A DNA stretch of 31,613 bases, taken from positions 1-31,613 of the forward strand of contig JADMIH010000026.1 in NCBI GenBank assembly GCA_015478675.1, given 5' to 3'. Every line of letters starts with the position of its first letter. Position 1 is the first letter of the stretch. Source of the stretch: Chloroflexota bacterium (GTDB lineage Bacteria > Chloroflexota > Chloroflexia > QHBQ01 > JADMIH01). Positions 17,301-26,032 of the stretch are shown here, one piece after another. The position numbers and the translations under genes are program-made. The notes beneath the pieces are model-generated. The model had not been told where the DNA came from, did not search any database, and saw nothing but the letters and a program-made list of their open reading frames with translations.

Positions 17301-17353
17301 GCCTGCGTAAGAGCAAAGTGCCCACAGACCAGGAGGCCAGGAGGAAAGATATT

Positions 17354-18856
17354 TTGGCAGAGCCGCGTTACCCTTTATTGATATATAACACCCTCACACG
17401 GAAGAAGGACCTCTTTGTGCCCCTCAAGCCGGGCGAAGTGGGTATGTACACCTGCGGACCGACGGTCTACAACTACGCGCATATAGGCAACTTGCGTACC
17501 TACGTCTTTGAGGATGTGCTACGACGTGTCCTCCTTTATGACGGCTTCGACGTGAAGCACGTGATGAATATCACCGACGTGGGCCATCTCAGCTCCGATG
17601 CGGATGAGGGCGAGGATAAAATGATCAAAGCGATGCGCCGCGAAGGGAAGACACCCTGGGACATCGCCCGGTTCTACACCGATGCCTTTTTCCATGATAC
17701 AGAGCGGCTCAACATCTTGCGCCCAACAATCGTCTCCCCAGCTACCGAGCACATCCCCGAAATGATCGCCCTGGTGCAATGCCTGGTAGACAAAGGCCAC
17801 GCCTACACCATCAGCGATGGCGTATACTACGATGTCGCCACCTTTCCCAGCTACGGCGAGCTTTCCAGACAGTCGCTTGAGGAGCAAGAAGCAGGAGCGC
17901 GCGTCGAGGTCAACCCGGAGAAGCACAACGCCGCCGACTTCGCGCTCTGGAAGCGGGCAGACCCTACCCACGCCATGCGTTGGGACTCGCCCTGGGGCCA
18001 GGGCTATCCAGGCTGGCACATCGAGTGCTCGGCTATGTCTATGGAATATCTGGGCGATACTTTCGACCTGCACTGCGGCGGGGTAGATCATATCCCGGTG
18101 CATCATGAGAACGAAATCGCGCAGTCTGAAGGCTGCACGGGCGAGCTATTTGTGCGCTACTGGGTGCACGGTGAGTTTCTGCTGATCAATGCGGGCAAAA
18201 TGAGCAAAAGCGCGGGGGCAGCCGAAGACCCTGGGATAACCGGCGAGGTGCGCGACATGGGCGAGGGGATCGAGCCTCTCAATAAGGGGGGTGGGGGCTT
18301 CCTGACGCTCCAAAAGCTGATCGACCAGGGATATGACCCTATAGCTTACCGTTACTTCTGTTTCTCGGCGAAGTACCGCGCCCAACTGAACTATACAGAG
18401 GAAGCGATGGGCGCCGCCGCCAGAGCGCTCGACAACCTCTACGACTTTGTCTACAGGGCGTCGCAAATGCCTTCTGTCGAGGAGACAGGTGATGGCTGGC
18501 AGCAGGAATACAAAGAGCGCTTCATAGCAGCTATCAACGACGATCTCAATATCCCCGGCGCCCTCGGCGAAGTACACAAGCTGATCACTGAGGCCAATCG
18601 CCGCGAGCAGCCTGCGGCGATTCTACCGACCCTCTACGACTGGGACCGAGTGCTCGGCCTCAGGCTCAAAGAAAAGGCCCAAGAGCGTAAAGCCGAGAGC
18701 TTACCTGCTGAGCTTCAGACCTTGCTTGATGAGAGACAGGCGGCGCGCAAAGCACGTGACTTCGCCCGCGCCGATGCCTTGCGCGCACAGTTGCGCGAAG
18801 CGGGCATCGAGATAGAAGATACGCCCCAGGGTGTACGCTGGAAACGGGTTTCCTAG
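17354..18856 (+). CDS. cysS: Cysteinyl-tRNA synthetase with insertion after KMSKS
   Basis: Class I aminoacyl-tRNA synthetase charging tRNA-Cys in the cytosol, 500 residues from TTG 17354. This start has AGGAGG 9 nt upstream and yields a family-like N-terminus (LLIYNTLTRKKDLFVPL). GTG 17318 is an in-frame alternative without a ribosome site. The HIGH motif is HIGN in TVYNYAHIGNLRTY, and KMSKS is at 282-286. Zinc ligands are recognisable in CGPTVY, WHIECSAM and HHENEIAQSE. After KMSKSAG, about 26 extra residues (AEDPGITGEVRDMGEG and a Gly-rich run) precede the usual FLTLQKL, where normal enzymes pass directly from KMSKSLGN to FFTL. The C-terminal DALR region is complete. It begins a rightward unit with surE 3 nt downstream. 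Confidence 0.95.
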   Translation: MAEPRYPLLIYNTLTRKKDLFVPLKPGEVGMYTCGPTVYNYAHIGNLRTYVFEDVLRRVLLYDGFDVKHVMNITDVGHLSSDADEGEDKMIKAMRREGKTPWDIARFYTDAFFHDTERLNILRPTIVSPATEHIPEMIALVQCLVDKGHAYTISDGVYYDVATFPSYGELSRQSLEEQEAGARVEVNPEKHNAADFALWKRADPTHAMRWDSPWGQGYPGWHIECSAMSMEYLGDTFDLHCGGVDHIPVHHENEIAQSEGCTGELFVRYWVHGEFLLINAGKMSKSAGAAEDPGITGEVRDMGEGIEPLNKGGGGFLTLQKLIDQGYDPIAYRYFCFSAKYRAQLNYTEEAMGAAARALDNLYDFVYRASQMPSVEETGDGWQQEYKERFIAAINDDLNIPGALGEVHKLITEANRREQPAAILPTLYDWDRVLGLRLKEKAQERKAESLPAELQTLLDERQAARKARDFARADALRAQLREAGIEIEDTPQGVRWKRVS

Positions 18857-20268: not shown

Positions 20269-20343
20269 GGCCCGGACGAGATAGTGCGCTCAGATGCACA
20301 GCCACAACGTAGTCCCAGGCTCATCGCAGAGAGGACCGCAAGA

Positions 20344-22542
20344 ATGAAAGCTGCCATGAGGCTTCTAACAGGCTGCGTCGCCCTATTTACATTGTTTCAG
20401 GCTGCGCCGCCCCTGACACAAAGCTCGAATGCTATAGCGGGCGCGACAACAGCGCCACCCGAGGGCTTTGCCAACTCTGCGCTCCGCGCCAGGTGGCAGC
20501 AGGATGAGCAGGCAGCGACTGCATCGCGCAGCAGCTGGATGTGGGGGCCTGGACCCTTCTACACAAACTACGAGCCGGAAATAGACCTGCCGCAGGGAAC
20601 CCACCTGGTGCAATATTTCGACAAAGGGCGGCTCGAAATCAATGATCCTGGCGCAGACCCGCAGTCGCCCTGGTTCGTAACGAGCGGACTTCTCGTGAAG
20701 GAGATGGTATCGGGCAAGGCGCAGGTTGGCGCGAACTCGTACTACACGCTTGGCCCGGCCAATATACCTGTAGCCGGAGACACAGGCAGCCCCACAGCGC
20801 CCACTTACGCAAGCTTCGCGGGATTGACGGCGCGCGCCACAAACCGCGAAGGCCAGAGCGTTACCGAGGAGCTAAGCAGGCAAGGCAGCATACGCGCGGT
20901 GACTTCACTACCCACAGCTGTAAAAGTAGCAAGGTTCGAGCAAACATCTGGTCATAACTGGGCCGACATCTTCTGGCGCTATGCAGGCGCGCCCGAACGT
21001 CCGGTTAGCTGGGATTGGCTTTACACTCTCGGCTACCCGATTACTGATCCTTACTGGGTGTCGGTCCCGGTCAACGGCAGAGCGCAGATGGTGCTTGTCC
21101 AACTCTTCGAGCGGCGAGTGCTTACTTATAATCCGTCGAATCCTGCCTCATCACAGATAGAGATGGGAAACGCGGGCAGGCACTACTATAATTGGCGTTA
21201 TGCCGATATGCGCCTCGCGGAGCTAGGCATTAAATACAGCGTATCAATAGCCGTCGGCGCTGCGCCCCAGCGTCTCACCACAGTGCATGAGAACGTTGAG
21301 ATCACGAACGGCACCGGGCAGGCGATGACGAACGTCACACTCCGTGCGGTGTGGCACAACTGGGACACGGTCTTTGCCTTGCAAAGCGCCACTGTGAGCG
21401 GCAAAGATGCGCAGACTCGCTGGCTGCTGGGCATCAACCTGGAAGTGAGCCTCCCGCAACCCTTACCCCCGGGCGAGAAGACTGGTATCTCGCTGGACTT
21501 CACGCTCAAGCCGCGCCCTATCGGCGGGCGCACAGGCTACGACAGGTCGAACGACATCCTCAGCTTAGGGGATATGTTGCCTACGGTTGTGCCCTGGGAG
21601 AATGGCGGCTGGTCCTTTTACCCTTACTCTGACCTCGGCGACCTCGGCTATTACCCGGTGAGCGATTACGACGTGGAGGTCTCTTCTGCCGGCAGCGAGC
21701 GGCTGGTAGTCGGCGGCACGGGCCAGATCACAACTGTGAACCAGGAGCGCACAAGCTGGCGCTTCCAGGCGCAGAGAGTTCGGGACGTGGCTTATCTGGT
21801 TTCACCCCGTTTCGTCAACCCTCTGGACGACCCTTCTATGACCCGGCAGGTGGGCAGCGTAAAAGTGTTAGCCTACTTTTTGCCGGGGCACCGGGCGCAA
21901 GGGCAGCGGCAGCTCGATCTTGTCACCCCCTCTATCTCCTGGTTCAGCAGCCGTGTAGGGACCTATCCATTCAGCACAGACACTGTAGCTGAGATGGGCA
22001 TACCACTCGACCCAACTGACAACTATGCCCAGGAATACCCGATGCTTTACCTGATACCCACCTCGTGGCTCGCGCTAGGCGTCACTCCAGGCAAGTGGAC
22101 GTGGTACACGCCTGTGCATGAGACCGGACACCAATGGTTCTACTCGACTGTCGGCAATAACCAGTTGACCGACCCCTGGCTTGACGAGGCGATGACCACA
22201 TACATGACGACAGAATATATACGGGCCAACTACCCGGACCTTTACGCGCAATCCTGGGCCTCGATGACGGCGGGCGCTCAAAGCCTGCGCCCCGTCTCTT
22301 CAGGGGTCTTCGGCGGCTTCACCAGCGAGAACCAGTACAGCTACACCATCTACGACACCGGCGCAGTGATGCTCAACAAAGTACGCCAGGCGATGGGCGA
22401 CACGGCCTTCTACGCCGCAATACAAGACTACTATAAGAGCTATTCTTTCAAGATAGCCACGCCCGCCGCCCTGACAGCAACCCTGCAAAAGCACGCCACC
22501 ACCGACCTGACGCCCATCTTCGCGGCTTATCTGGCGCGTTAG
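20344..22542 (+). CDS. Secreted M1-family metallopeptidase with long N-terminal extension
   Basis: 732 residues from ATG 20344, which has AGAGG 9 nt upstream and creates a signal peptide (MKAAMRLLTGCVALFTLFQ). GTG 20284 is an in-frame alternative. LTGC resembles a lipobox but precedes the hydrophobic core, so ordinary secretion is more likely. Residues about 40-320 form an extracellular domain (THLVQYFDKGRLEIN, QLFERRVLTYNPSNP) of a type seen ahead of catalytic domains in secreted Chloroflexota proteins. The gluzincin site is H592-E-T-G-H596 with E615 in DEAMTTY. In place of the aminopeptidase GAMEN motif there is AQEYPML, which keeps only the Glu. It is therefore likely an extracellular zinc peptidase, with exopeptidase activity uncertain. 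Begins 75 nt after thpR. Confidence 0.85.
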   Translation: MKAAMRLLTGCVALFTLFQAAPPLTQSSNAIAGATTAPPEGFANSALRARWQQDEQAATASRSSWMWGPGPFYTNYEPEIDLPQGTHLVQYFDKGRLEINDPGADPQSPWFVTSGLLVKEMVSGKAQVGANSYYTLGPANIPVAGDTGSPTAPTYASFAGLTARATNREGQSVTEELSRQGSIRAVTSLPTAVKVARFEQTSGHNWADIFWRYAGAPERPVSWDWLYTLGYPITDPYWVSVPVNGRAQMVLVQLFERRVLTYNPSNPASSQIEMGNAGRHYYNWRYADMRLAELGIKYSVSIAVGAAPQRLTTVHENVEITNGTGQAMTNVTLRAVWHNWDTVFALQSATVSGKDAQTRWLLGINLEVSLPQPLPPGEKTGISLDFTLKPRPIGGRTGYDRSNDILSLGDMLPTVVPWENGGWSFYPYSDLGDLGYYPVSDYDVEVSSAGSERLVVGGTGQITTVNQERTSWRFQAQRVRDVAYLVSPRFVNPLDDPSMTRQVGSVKVLAYFLPGHRAQGQRQLDLVTPSISWFSSRVGTYPFSTDTVAEMGIPLDPTDNYAQEYPMLYLIPTSWLALGVTPGKWTWYTPVHETGHQWFYSTVGNNQLTDPWLDEAMTTYMTTEYIRANYPDLYAQSWASMTAGAQSLRPVSSGVFGGFTSENQYSYTIYDTGAVMLNKVRQAMGDTAFYAAIQDYYKSYSFKIATPAALTATLQKHATTDLTPIFAAYLAR

Positions 22543-22621: not shown

Positions 22622-23134
22622 TCATGCGCCGTCGCTGGTAGGTTCAAGAGCCTGCGCGAGAGCTGCCGTATCTGGTTGCGCCCGAGCCTGCTGGCCCACA
22701 GTGTGATACGGCTGCGCGTTTGTAGTGCGCGTAACATCTGAACCGCGCATCTTCCATGCCATAAAAAGCATTGAGAGGGGACACATAGCCAGCAGTAAGA
22801 GCGGCAAAATACCCCATACAAGCTGTGGCGCGACTAGCCAGGCGGCTAGCCCCACAAGGGCCAGGCCGCCGACAACCCGCGGATTTATGCACATCCCGAG
22901 CATACGCAGCATATCCAGTGCTGGCGTCCGTCTCTTACCAACACGCGGCGATTCCGCTTGCGGAATCTTCGTGTCTTCGTTTTCTTCTCCCATCGATTCA
23001 GGGCTGCCCACGCCGGCGATATTGGTCAAGGAGCCTGCGCCAGGTGATTGTTGGTGGCGTCCCATGAACCACATCATGAGTCCCATCATAGCAGCGCAAC
23101 TAGCCAATGGCAGTAAAAAGAATAACTCTTTCAT
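22622..23134 (-). CDS. Small Met/Cys-containing membrane protein (DUF2933-like)
   Basis: 170 residues from ATG 23134, with AGGAGG 10 nt upstream; TTG 23140 is a less likely start. An N-terminal hydrophobic, Met-rich segment (MKELFFLLPLASCAAMMGLMMWFMGRH) is followed by an acidic loop. A second hydrophobic region (VVGGLALVGLAAWLVAPQL, GILPLLLLAMCP) ends in CPLSMLFMAWKM. The Cys-Pro...Met pattern resembles small DUF2933 proteins found near copper and heavy-metal genes; that resemblance is by eye. The C-terminal tail is polar. Last gene of the leftward operon, 71 nt after the DUF1573 gene, with a hairpin terminator beyond it. Confidence 0.65.
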   Translation of the reverse strand: MKELFFLLPLASCAAMMGLMMWFMGRHQQSPGAGSLTNIAGVGSPESMGEENEDTKIPQAESPRVGKRRTPALDMLRMLGMCINPRVVGGLALVGLAAWLVAPQLVWGILPLLLLAMCPLSMLFMAWKMRGSDVTRTTNAQPYHTVGQQARAQPDTAALAQALEPTSDGA

Positions 23135-23204
23135 GCTCAATATCCCTCCTGGTGTGAATAACTCAATTGTGCCTGTGTGCCCTACTGTAGTGGCGCAGCT
23201 TGGG

Positions 23205-23699
23205 CTAAGGCTTCACTAAAAAGCGGAGTGTAAGGGTTTGCTCTGGGGCCACAGGGTCGTTTGACTTAACTCGCAGCAATACGTCCTGCATGCCGGGCAT
23301 TGGCTTGTCGAAGCTTACAACGATAGTGCTTGATTCTCCAGGATTGATGGTCGCCGAACTGGCGACAGCTTTGACCCCTCAGGTTCAGGTGCCGCCGGGG
23401 CGAGGCGGCTCAGGGTTTATGTCCGTAATCTGGAGCGGTTGATTGCCTGAGTTGGTGAACTGCCAGCGATACTCCATTGGGGTGGCATAATTTATGGTGC
23501 CGAATTGGTGCTCTGTCTCCTGAAAGCTGAGCCTCGGCCCACCACCGCCCGCTTGCCCTTGTCCGCCGGACCCGCCGCCCAAATCGCAGGCGGTGAGGCC
23601 CAGGAGCACGGCAAAGGCAGCAACAAGAGCGAACAGCAGGCCCCCGTAGCCTATGATCGGGGGTGAGGTTGTCCACCTTAAAGTGTTCCTCTTACGCAT
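23205..23699 (-). CDS. DUF1573 lipoprotein with two in-frame UGA codons: candidate selenoprotein (Sec-Thr-Sec)
   Basis: 164 codons plus stop from ATG 23699 (GGAGG 6 nt upstream) to TAG 23205. A signal segment with lipobox LTAC (Cys38) and a Gly-rich spacer are followed by a DUF1573 domain (LSFQETEHQFGTINYATPMEYRW, NSGNQPLQITDI). Codons 105 and 107 are TGA (23387-23385 and 23381-23379), separated by ACC. The same frame then continues for over 50 sense codons of clean family sequence (SATINPGESSTIVVSFDKPM, LRVKSNDPVAPEQTLTLRF). The UGAs sit 12 residues before Pro-Gly, where DUF1573 proteins usually carry Cys-x-Cys. Read as Sec this is a U-T-U lipoprotein; otherwise it is a pseudogene with two nonsense codons one codon apart. 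Middle gene of the leftward operon. Confidence 0.7.
23341..23377 (-). promoter_or_regulatory. Candidate bacterial SECIS stem-loop
   Basis: In the mRNA, 12 nt after the second UGA, GUCGCC and GGCGAC form a perfect 6-bp stem with loop AGUUC. The loop carries G-U at positions 2-3, and its G is 20 nt after the second UGA and 26 nt after the first. That fits the 16-37 nt window described for bacterial SECIS elements. An outer GGGU/AUCC pairing can extend it across an internal loop. The E. coli bulged U is not reproduced. Confidence 0.5.
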
Positions 23700-23733
23700 C
23701 TTATACCTCCTCTATCTAATCATTTACCCGGGT

Positions 23734-24732
23734 CTACTTCTGACCCGACCATGTGGTCCCACCGTCCTCACTTCGGAAGACCAGCCCCTCCCGACTTTTG
23801 GCGTTCACAGCCAGTATCAGTTGCGGGCGAGCAGGGCTGATAGCCAGCGCTACGGCATTATCTCCAGGGTAGGTTGTCTTTTTCCATGTAGCTCCAGTGT
23901 CCGTGCTTTTGTATAGACCTCCCTCCACTCCTGCGTATAGAGTACTGCTTGTTTTGGGGTCCACAGCTACTGCATATATGTTACTTGAGACCAGATCGCC
24001 TCCCGCCGGCGCCCAGCTTTTCCCGGTATCGCTGCTACGTAGCATCCCGGAACCCATGCTCACCGCATAGAGAGATATGGGGTCGCCACCCGTCGCCAGC
24101 GACATCACGTCGGGCGGCATCTGGCCGCCAGTAGTTTGCCAGGTGCTACCACCGTCACTGCTCTGCAACACTCCACTGCCCACAAGATAAGCGAAGAGGC
24201 GATTACTGCCGTCGGTAGCGGCAGCGAAACCGTGAGTGTCGGTGCCTGGAAGATTGTTCTCGACCGGACGCCATGTTGCACCGCCATTCGAGCTTACTTG
24301 AAATATATCGTGGCCCGCCATGTACATCTGCTTTGAATTGGTAGGGTTCACAACTATGCCCATCGCGTCGAAGTCTTTCTTGTCAACCAGAGTGGTCCAC
24401 GTCTGCCCGGCATCATTGCTGCGCAAGATGCCCCCATGATGGCCGAAGAAGACTGTATTGGGGTCCTCCGGATTGAAGACAAGGGCGTGGTAATCCGAAG
24501 TGCCCAGGGTAGAGATAACGCCACCATTCCCCCCGCCTCTGGGCAGCAAGAAGAAGAGGAGCACAACCGCCAGGAGTGCGGCAACCACGCCAATGATGAG
24601 GGATCGCCTCTGTCGTTTTGGCATACCTCGCCGGTAAGCGGTTCGCCCTGCCTTCTGTTTCGTTTGCATCCCCGGGCTACCGGGGCGTATTGTTGTGGCA
24701 GTTTTGGCACGCTGTTTGGTCTTCTGTGACAT
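23734..24732 (-). CDS. Membrane-anchored Asp-box beta-propeller (F510_1955-like family)
   Basis: 332 residues. The basic N-terminus is followed by one TM helix (about residues 44-65), giving an extracytoplasmic propeller. Six Asp-box/BNR motifs of the S-x-D-x-G-x-T-W type are visible: SNDAGQTW, SSNGGATW, SSDGGSTW, SSDTGKSW, STDTGATW and SEDGGTTW, each at the end of a blade. Relatives are named F510_1955-family glycosylhydrolases, although no catalytic residues are evident and a sialidase role is not supported. ATG 24732 has GGAG upstream; ATG 24669 and 24624 are further in-frame candidates. First gene of the leftward operon, 34 nt before the DUF1573 gene, with a leader of about 147 nt from the promoter at 24886. 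Confidence 0.85.
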   Translation of the reverse strand: MSQKTKQRAKTATTIRPGSPGMQTKQKAGRTAYRRGMPKRQRRSLIIGVVAALLAVVLLFFLLPRGGGNGGVISTLGTSDYHALVFNPEDPNTVFFGHHGGILRSNDAGQTWTTLVDKKDFDAMGIVVNPTNSKQMYMAGHDIFQVSSNGGATWRPVENNLPGTDTHGFAAATDGSNRLFAYLVGSGVLQSSDGGSTWQTTGGQMPPDVMSLATGGDPISLYAVSMGSGMLRSSDTGKSWAPAGGDLVSSNIYAVAVDPKTSSTLYAGVEGGLYKSTDTGATWKKTTYPGDNAVALAISPARPQLILAVNAKSREGLVFRSEDGGTTWSGQK

Positions 24733-24998: not shown

Positions 24999-25283
24999 AT
25001 GGGCGGTAATGGCATGATGAGTGGGATGATGGGGTCCGGCATCTACTGGTGGCTTTTCGCAGGATCGGTGATAGTGGTGATAACAGGTATCGTACTGCTT
25101 CTTGCCTGGCTTTTTGGCCGCAGTGCGAGCCGTGCACGCGTCACAAGCGAGGAAACCCCGCTGGTTATACTTCAACGCCGCTACGCGCAGGGGGAGATTG
25201 GCCCCGATGAATACGCTCGTGTCCGTTCGGATTTACTGTCTAACGCCAGTGCTCCGGCGGGGAACAAGGAGAATACAGAATGA
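24999..25283 (+). CDS. Small SHOCT-domain membrane protein
   Basis: 94 residues from ATG 24999; GTG 24996 is immediately upstream and in frame. The N-terminus is Met/Gly-rich (MGGNGMMSGMMGSG). One TM helix (about 16-38) is followed by the SHOCT motif at the C-terminus (LQRRYAQGEIGPDEYARVRSDL), typically an oligomerisation segment. No ribosome site is obvious. Its stop overlaps the DUF305 start (ATGA), so the two are translationally coupled. Met-rich N-termini and pairing with DUF305 are common in metal-stress loci of many bacteria (inference for this one). Confidence 0.85.
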   Translation: MGGNGMMSGMMGSGIYWWLFAGSVIVVITGIVLLLAWLFGRSASRARVTSEETPLVILQRRYAQGEIGPDEYARVRSDLLSNASAPAGNKENTE

Positions 25284-26032
25284 GAAATCGCACTTTATTA
25301 GTCGCCGGCCTGGGGTTGCTCTTCTTTGGGATAGCGGGTATGGTATTGGGCGGGGTGGGGGCCTTTGCCTCAGCGCCCACTTCTATGATAGCTGGGCCAA
25401 CGGCCCAGGCAGCTACGACACCCAGCGCTGCCCCAAGCCCGTTCATGGGCACCTCGGACCCCAACGCCGAGTACGATCTCCGCTTTATTGATGAAATGAG
25501 TATGCACCACCAGGGTGCTATCATGTCGGCGCAAGTGATGATAGGAGGGTCCAAGCGGCCTGAGCTGCGAGACCTGGCAAGCCGAATAGAGAAAGGGCAG
25601 CAGAAACAGTTAGACCAGATGCAAGCCTGGCGTAAGCAGTGGTACCCTAATGCGCCCAAGCCCACTATGACTACGGATATGATGGGGGCAGGTGGCATGG
25701 GCAGCGCGAGTGGCGGCATGATGAGTGGGAGTTCTAATAGTGGTATGATGGGCAGCATGATGGTAGATATGATGGGCGGGCAAGACGCCTCCGACCGGAT
25801 GTTCCTGCGGATGATGATCCCTCATCACCAACTGGCGATTGACATGGCGCAGGATGCCCTGAAGAACGCCCAGCGCGCTGAGCTTAAGACCCTGGCACAG
25901 CAAATCGTTAACGACCAATCTGCCGAGATAAAGGAGATGGAAGGCTATCTTCTCACATGGTACGGCGAACCCTCGACACGCGACACAGCCCAGAGCATGC
26001 GCGAAATGATGCAGCGCGTGTGCAAGCCCTAA
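25280..26032 (+). CDS. Secreted tandem DUF305 (ferritin-like) protein
   Basis: 250 residues with an N-terminal signal peptide or anchor (RTLLVAGLGLLFFGIAGMVLGG). Two DUF305 repeats follow, each a helical segment with a His-His-Gln motif: MHHQGAIM around residues 75-81 and IPHHQLAIDMA around 180-190. A Met/Gly/Ser-rich loop (about 130-170, MMGAGGMGSASGGMM) joins them. DUF305 proteins are extracytoplasmic four-helix proteins often near copper genes; His and Met are plausible metal ligands, but activity is unproven. AAGGAG lies 9 nt before ATG 25280. Last gene of the plus operon. Confidence 0.92.
   Translation: MRNRTLLVAGLGLLFFGIAGMVLGGVGAFASAPTSMIAGPTAQAATTPSAAPSPFMGTSDPNAEYDLRFIDEMSMHHQGAIMSAQVMIGGSKRPELRDLASRIEKGQQKQLDQMQAWRKQWYPNAPKPTMTTDMMGAGGMGSASGGMMSGSSNSGMMGSMMVDMMGGQDASDRMFLRMMIPHHQLAIDMAQDALKNAQRAELKTLAQQIVNDQSAEIKEMEGYLLTWYGEPSTRDTAQSMREMMQRVCKP

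Follow-up and report, generated by a model that had tools for sequence, protein, structure and literature searches.

A single frame of 164 codons plus TAG on the minus strand of the window (the whole stretch of DNA that was analysed, 31,613 nucleotides) is interrupted by in-frame TGA at codons 105 and 107, which raises the question whether these two triplets are stops or are translated as selenocysteine (Sec). Judged from the sequence data presented below, the gene encodes with a rough probability of 0.8 a DUF1573 lipoprotein with the motif Sec-Thr-Sec; for the separate parts of this reading, insertion of Sec at codon 107 is very probable, and insertion at both codons 105 and 107 is likely. 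The original prediction of a Sec-Thr-Sec protein is thereby well supported; its main grounds are that TGA codons are conserved at the motif, that the hairpin behind them covaries and keeps one register, and that genomes of relatives carry Sec machinery. The coordinates of all features are collected in Table 1.

Table 1. Features of the DUF1573 locus and of its neighbourhood in the window
Feature	Position	Strand	Basis or remark
DUF1573 lipoprotein gene	23205..23699	-	ATG at 23699, TAG 23205-23207; read through 2 TGA codons
Shine-Dalgarno GGAGG within GAGGAGGTATAAG-ATG	23706..23710	-	read directly from sequence
Lipobox-like LTAC, Cys38 = likely lipidated residue	23586..23597	-	sequence motif
TGA codon 105 (putative first Sec = first Cys of family CxC)	23385..23387	-	relatives' ends, by eye
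TGA codon 107 (putative second Sec = second Cys of CxC)	23379..23381	-	TGA there in 11/11 Chloroflexota in-frame-TGA loci
SECIS-type hairpin GTCGCC-AGTTC-GGCGAC	23350..23366	-	loop GU at +22/+23 of TGA107
Downstream gene, DUF2933, possible same transcript	22622..23140	-	profile match (PF11666, 27.6 bits, cut-off 21)
Upstream BNR/sortilin-like repeat protein, possible same transcript	23734..24732	-	nearest NCBIfam F510_1955, 123.5 bits < cut-off 175
DUF305, CopM-family metallochaperone, divergent neighbour	25280..26032	+	profile match (101 bits, cut-off 90)

The frame was predicted to run from a strong ribosome binding site through a lipobox and a DUF1573 domain across both TGA codons, and the computational analysis bears this out. 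The hydrophobic segment of the protein ends in LTAC, which, with its last residue at Cys38, we take to be a lipobox, and the PF07610 (DUF1573) profile covers residues 57-153 on both sides of the TGA codons with E 3.8e-15 and 56.1 bits at a cut-off of 26.1, which places the protein in this family. The Pfam, NCBIfam, single-sequence protein, plasmid, and 158-genome searches as well as alignments A1 and A3 were made with the query 23211-23699, that is, 163 of the 164 residues, and the MAFFT alignment A6 included all 164. Residues 105-107, translated as U-T-U, occupy the place of C-G-C in ordinary DUF1573 proteins, about 12 residues before Pro-Gly, as was seen by eye in P0135, P0137, and P0138 and in agreement with the predicted Cys-x-Cys position. 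The part behind the TGA codons is 47% identical over 45 residues to the corresponding part of locus L060, the nearest relative of the window gene at the DNA level (46%).

UGA terminates 8 of the 22 other ORFs of the window that were taken as genes, including all three that had been named as such examples beforehand (surE, the second GT4, and csaB, in the nomenclature of the original prediction), and a global reassignment of UGA was rejected because of this. There are no tRNA genes within the window.

The database copy of the window protein (P0001) stops at codon 104, and two proteins found by single-sequence search, P0002 and P0003 (76% and 73% identical to the window protein, respectively), both end just before the place of codon 105. 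A profile query composed of the window protein, L060, P0002, and P0003, with which scoring was limited to the 7,994 candidates that had the most words in common, returned 17 proteins; six of them were set aside, namely, P0001 as the window's own, P0130 as the second half of L060, and P0135-P0138 as more distant. Nine of the 11 close relatives (P0002, P0003, P0126-P0129, and P0131-P0133) terminate at the position of codon 105, give or take Thr104, with PGG, PGT, PGGT, or similar ends, and most of these truncated proteins, like L060, have by eye no residue matching Thr104. The two others, P0134 and P0125 (the first half of L060), possess Cys aligned with codon 105 and end one residue later, at the position of codon 107, so that a full-length Cys-x-Cys protein was found in none of the 11 close relatives. 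These end positions were read by eye against the window protein and L060, because A6 set the PGG of the truncated relatives against the later PG of other proteins. For the truncated close relatives other than L060 the stops are presumably TGA as well. The active motif is missing from the database entry of the window protein, which ends at residue 104, and from those of the nine close relatives with a like end.

Among the homologues with Cys, also read by eye, the first position is Cys in L060 and P0134, the motif is EGCCPP in P0136, and SCGCT is present in P0135, P0137, and P0138. In the comparison of homologues proposed with the original prediction, TGA or Cys stands at the motif in P0134-P0138 and in 11 Chloroflexota loci with TGA, L060 among them. 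The break shared by the relatives and the Cys present in two of them speak against both sequencing error and decay of the gene. Plasmid records contained no relative, and scanning of genome contigs and viral contigs with the three-row alignment A1 gave 127 and 25 pattern matches, respectively, none of which is a relative.

At the DNA level a PF07610 search of 400 genomes of Chloroflexota, the phylum of genome G001, gave matches at E 1e-4 in 35 of them, with 62 match rows listed. Eleven of the listed rows, located in 8 genomes and with frames of 145-230 aa, carry a stop, which is exactly one TGA in each case and never TAA or TAG, and the translation places this TGA at the Cys motif in all 11. 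Ten of these forms (L054-L059 and L061-L064) read as Gly-Cys-Sec-Pro or Ser-Cys-Sec-Pro in translation, that is, a CU motif, and the above-mentioned P0136 is a Cys version of such CU-form proteins. The remaining one, L060 of genome G273, reads as Gly-Cys-Thr-Sec and has a longer loop after the motif. The L060 gene, which lies on the 5,688-base contig G273:C226, is represented in the protein database by two proteins, P0125 and P0130 (HYY04_11210 in NCBI), and is apparently a selenoprotein divided by annotation.

A second UxU gene was not encountered at the DNA level, as none of the 62 listed PF07610 rows has two TGA codons. The A3 profile, applied at E 1e-6, matched 4 of 13 genomes of the order of G273 and the same 4 of 29 genomes of its class, giving five rows with one TGA in each; G217, which has two TGA forms by PF07610, showed no A3 match. 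The window protein was found at E 1e-6 in none of the 158 genomes of the class of G001, a search that had no positive control.

The original prediction placed a stem-loop of SECIS type at the right distance downstream, and this hairpin was confirmed, with the GU of its loop in the register of TGA107 and with dimensions inside the published constraints. According to PMC13188914, the bSECIS model comprises an upper stem of 4-16 bp, a loop of 3-9 nt that begins 16-37 nt after UGA and has G at one of its first two positions, as a rule with G or U next to it, and a minimum free energy of at most -7.5 kcal/mol. The window hairpin has a 5-nt loop and a 6-bp stem and a loop sequence AGUUC with G within the first two positions; the loop lies 18 nt after UGA107 and 24 nt after UGA105, both distances being inside the published range. 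The energy is -13.4 kcal/mol, a value computed for the 42 nt after TGA107 including the outer stem, and is likewise within the limit.

When the hairpin was formulated as a rule (stem of at least 6 bp, 5-nt loop at +21..+25, GT at +22/23), one of the 945 TGA triplets that the window contains on its two strands complied, that of codon 107, and 15 of 63,106 positions overall did so, a count that is not blind, since the rule was fixed after the register of the relatives was known. Out of 20,000 trials of synonymous-codon randomisation per site, 276 reached the window hairpin, and between 104 and 591 reached the hairpin of each of the other 11 sites. The energy with which the region folds does not stand out from that of dinucleotide shuffles (z -0.93), which fold nearly as well; because this difference is not significant, energy by itself is no evidence, and it is the register and the covariation that count. 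TGA105 lacks a hairpin of its own, and no hairpin stronger than that of TGA107 serves UGA105, for which the latter is 6 nt further away than the hairpins of the relatives are from their TGA. The passages of PMC8659212 and PMC4513850 on the distance between UGA and SECIS hold nothing decisive for bacteria.

The 54 nt counted from TGA align without gaps in the 11 relatives and the window, and a 7-bp stem closing the 5-nt loop is paired in 91.7% of cells across these 12 sites, in comparison with at most 67.9% in slid registers. For each of the seven stem pairs at least one sequence has both partners changed, and the covariation score was reached by 0 of 500 shuffles, the structure having been drawn from the same 12 sequences on which it was scored; further types of pair are no more numerous than in shuffles, 399 of 500 of which attain the same count. 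Pairing at the outermost position is lost in 6 of the 12 sites. The loop GU stands at +22/+23 in 11 of the 12 sites (the window and 10 of the 11 relatives), being off by one in L061, and the minimum-energy structure of L057 by RNAfold is different from the SECIS-type hairpin.

A covariance model (R1) built from the 11 TGA-form relatives with the window excluded found the window at 23381-23328, that is, at codon 107, with 37.9 bits and E 1.4e-6, the next best match having 11.0 bits. The same site is also recovered by a model without base pairs (24.3 bits, E 9.8e-7). Homology alone therefore accounts for some of the R1 signal, and base pairing together with the longer match adds about 13 bits. 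In the bacterial SECIS search that had been proposed, the model made from relatives recovers the hairpin, and Rfam gave no match either in 23000-23800 at a permissive setting or in the whole window at the gathering score.

Genes for Sec decoding were looked for in the eight genomes with TGA forms, and each of them contains at least one of SelA, SelB, and tRNA-Sec. SelA (TIGR00474) is present in 7 of the 8 with E 3.9e-123 or better and was not found in G185; this is no enrichment, because SelA was over the cut-off in 321 of the 400 Chloroflexota genomes (and in 1 of 14 controls, E. coli), and therefore selenocysteine use looks widespread across the phylum. SelB was over the cut-off in 6 of 8 (not in G185 and G273), with a partial match in G273 (positions 201-580, 95.3 bits at a cut-off of 242.25); the SelB search gave some match in 14 of 14 controls and a match over the cut-off in 2 of 14. 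For tRNA-Sec 6 of 8 genomes, other than G266 and G273, reached 65.2-74.7 bits at a cut-off of 47, in a search that is not clean, as some match was seen in 14 of 14 controls and a match over the cut-off in 5 of 14. SelA, SelB, and tRNA-Sec are all present in G001. In the organism of the window itself Sec decoding of this gene is presumed.

The following mechanism may be proposed. The gene product would be a surface lipoprotein, probably of a member of Chloroflexota, with an Ig-like DUF1573 domain in which the CxC motif is Sec-Thr-Sec. SelB together with Sec-tRNA-Sec would bind the hairpin just after codon 107 and insert Sec at UGA107, and probably the same hairpin would also direct Sec at UGA105, 6 nt further upstream. 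By description this resembles the E. coli fdhF SECIS, a hairpin with a GU loop right after UGA, which differs in that it serves a single UGA. The two selenolates, two residues apart in the loop before strand 109-113, would most likely constitute a soft-metal site for Cu+ or Hg2+ or, alternatively, a reversible diselenide outside the membrane. Taken as a whole, a subfamily of DUF1573 lipoproteins with UxU, a single SECIS for both codons, and an extracytoplasmic two-selenolate soft-metal clamp or diselenide switch is a reasonably probable reading.

The AlphaFold2 model, for which A6 was the input, is an Ig-like sandwich with a mean pLDDT of 83.3 and a confident core, and the motif block 101-110 (mean pLDDT 74) is a less certain loop before the mentioned strand. 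The best Foldseek matches include HYDIN, VesB/VesC, CEP192, and PapD-like domains, and HYDIN and 2qsv were among the 10 matches of a sequence search in solved structures. This model would fit a binding or redox motif displayed on an Ig-like scaffold.

A soft-metal or redox role of the protein is suggested by its surroundings, and the metal- or redox-related operon of the original prediction is plausible, being hinted at in the window by one neighbour, CopM, over its cut-off. A serious alternative, though less likely than not, keeps the dual-Sec protein and gives it another task: it would bind no metal and would serve as a redox partner of the thiol/selenol type, either for electron transfer outside the cytoplasm or for the maturation of cytochrome c. 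The neighbours of the relatives, 7 of 10 of which matched Pfam, give it some ground: the contig of L060 carries DsbD_2, L064 adjoins a cytochrome c gene, L059 adjoins a Fer4_5 protein, L058 has a PCYCGC protein beside it, and a neighbour of L054 resembles CYCXC in NCBIfam below the cut-off. However, the other neighbours are uninformative, namely, the M56 peptidase and methyltransferase genes at L060, the PDZ protein at L058, and the 3 of 10 proteins without a match; CopM is the nearest named neighbour in the window, and a diselenide between positions two residues apart may be strained.

Less probable, and on balance unlikely, is that only UGA107 is efficiently recoded and UGA105 is mainly a stop or regulatory brake, so that mostly a 104-residue lipoprotein and little full-length protein would be made. 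Such a view agrees with the 11 of 11 DNA-level relatives, which have their one TGA at the position of codon 107 and the hairpin in that register, and with the additional 6 nt between UGA105 and the hairpin, as UGA-SECIS spacing matters in E. coli. Nevertheless, nine of the 11 close relatives share the break at codon 105, which would be odd if it blocked the protein, and 24 nt from UGA105 to the loop is within the range given in PMC13188914.

Very improbable is the explanation of the TGA codons as ordinary stops followed by a decaying remnant or an assembly error, for which the end of P0001 at codon 104 and the usual fold energy of the region may be adduced: the break recurs at this position in relatives of 73-76% and lower identity, the region after the TGA codons is still recognisable family sequence, the hairpin covaries, and no TAA or TAG occurs among the 11 broken matches. 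Sequencing error and pseudogene formation were rejected in particular because of the same break place in relatives and the hairpin covariation. Equally hard to credit is that an unusual tRNA, of a kind known elsewhere, inserts Cys or some other standard amino acid at UGA. Although Cys is the aligned residue in relatives such as P0136, UGA ends 8 of the 22 other ORFs taken as genes, and Sec agrees both with a hairpin in the SECIS register and with the SelA, SelB, and tRNA-Sec found in the genomes of relatives.

The Sec-Thr-Sec reading has to be compared with selenoprotein families already listed, and here the original prediction, in which no described bacterial selenoprotein of this kind was recognised, stands in part: DUF1573/PF07610 selenoproteins are already known, and the UxU form is apparently new. 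OS_HP2 is listed as a pfam07610 selenoprotein with the motif UxC (PMC2398784), and a DUF1573 selenoprotein with the UGC motif is listed in PMC9312934 and PMC13188914, with one Sec according to the latter. OS_HP2 (NCBIfam NF041425) shares with the window protein the DUF1573 domain and Sec in place of a Cys of CxC but differs in having UxC or UGC with one Sec (PMC13188914), and the window protein, with U-T-U, gives 34 bits with NF041425 at a cut-off of 100 and falls outside this profile. Six of the 11 TGA-form relatives were compared with NF041425, of which four gave 23.3-27.9 bits and two had no match listed. The Chloroflexota single-TGA proteins agree with the window gene in domain and in hairpin register, and by eye their TGA falls on the second Cys of the motif, but they contain one TGA (10 CU and 1 CxU) and the window gene two.

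According to PMC13188914, two or three Sec occur in a minor part of the selenoproteins, and the UxxU selenoproteins among those it describes (for example, metal-binding NF041115 and Prx-like) carry, as the window protein would, two Sec in one metal or redox motif, yet in other domains and with a two-residue gap. UxxU is listed and UxU is absent in the texts of PMC2398784, PMC9312934, and PMC13188914, an absence from open-licence literature searched by literal terms that is not proof; in the same kind of literature no further DUF1573 selenoprotein paper beyond these three and no paper for Chloroflexota with "novel selenoprotein" were found. Since different Sec motifs within one domain are counted as distinct subfamilies in PMC13188914, the UxU and CU forms may be regarded as new subfamilies, that is, new variants of DUF1573 selenoproteins as far as the search extended, and the survey adds a CU subfamily of Chloroflexota DUF1573 proteins with a covarying SECIS-type hairpin. 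If the Sec-Thr-Sec reading is true, two UGA codons 6 nt apart with one hairpin make a compact natural test of the reach of SelB from SECIS and of whether bacterial SelB recodes twice in succession.

Several minor observations were made in the course of this analysis. PCYCGC/CYCXC-type proteins (L058 4804-5265 and L054 2951-3412), which also belong to a family with listed selenoproteins, lie beside DUF1573-Sec genes. The cysS-like protein of the window (17318-18856) contains an unusual Gly-rich insertion after what we take to be the KMSKS motif; matches at E 1e-70 were obtained in 35 of 53 chosen genomes, with a best identity of 57% over residues 6-292, and in many relatives the match does not extend beyond about residue 290. 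The M1-peptidase-like protein (20284-22542) was matched at E 1e-100 in one of the 158 genomes of the class of G001, G001 itself, with 44% identity, and its first approximately 310 residues matched 10, 18, 35, and 45 places in four genomes, in most cases with no peptidase part attached, in the manner of a reused N-terminal domain.
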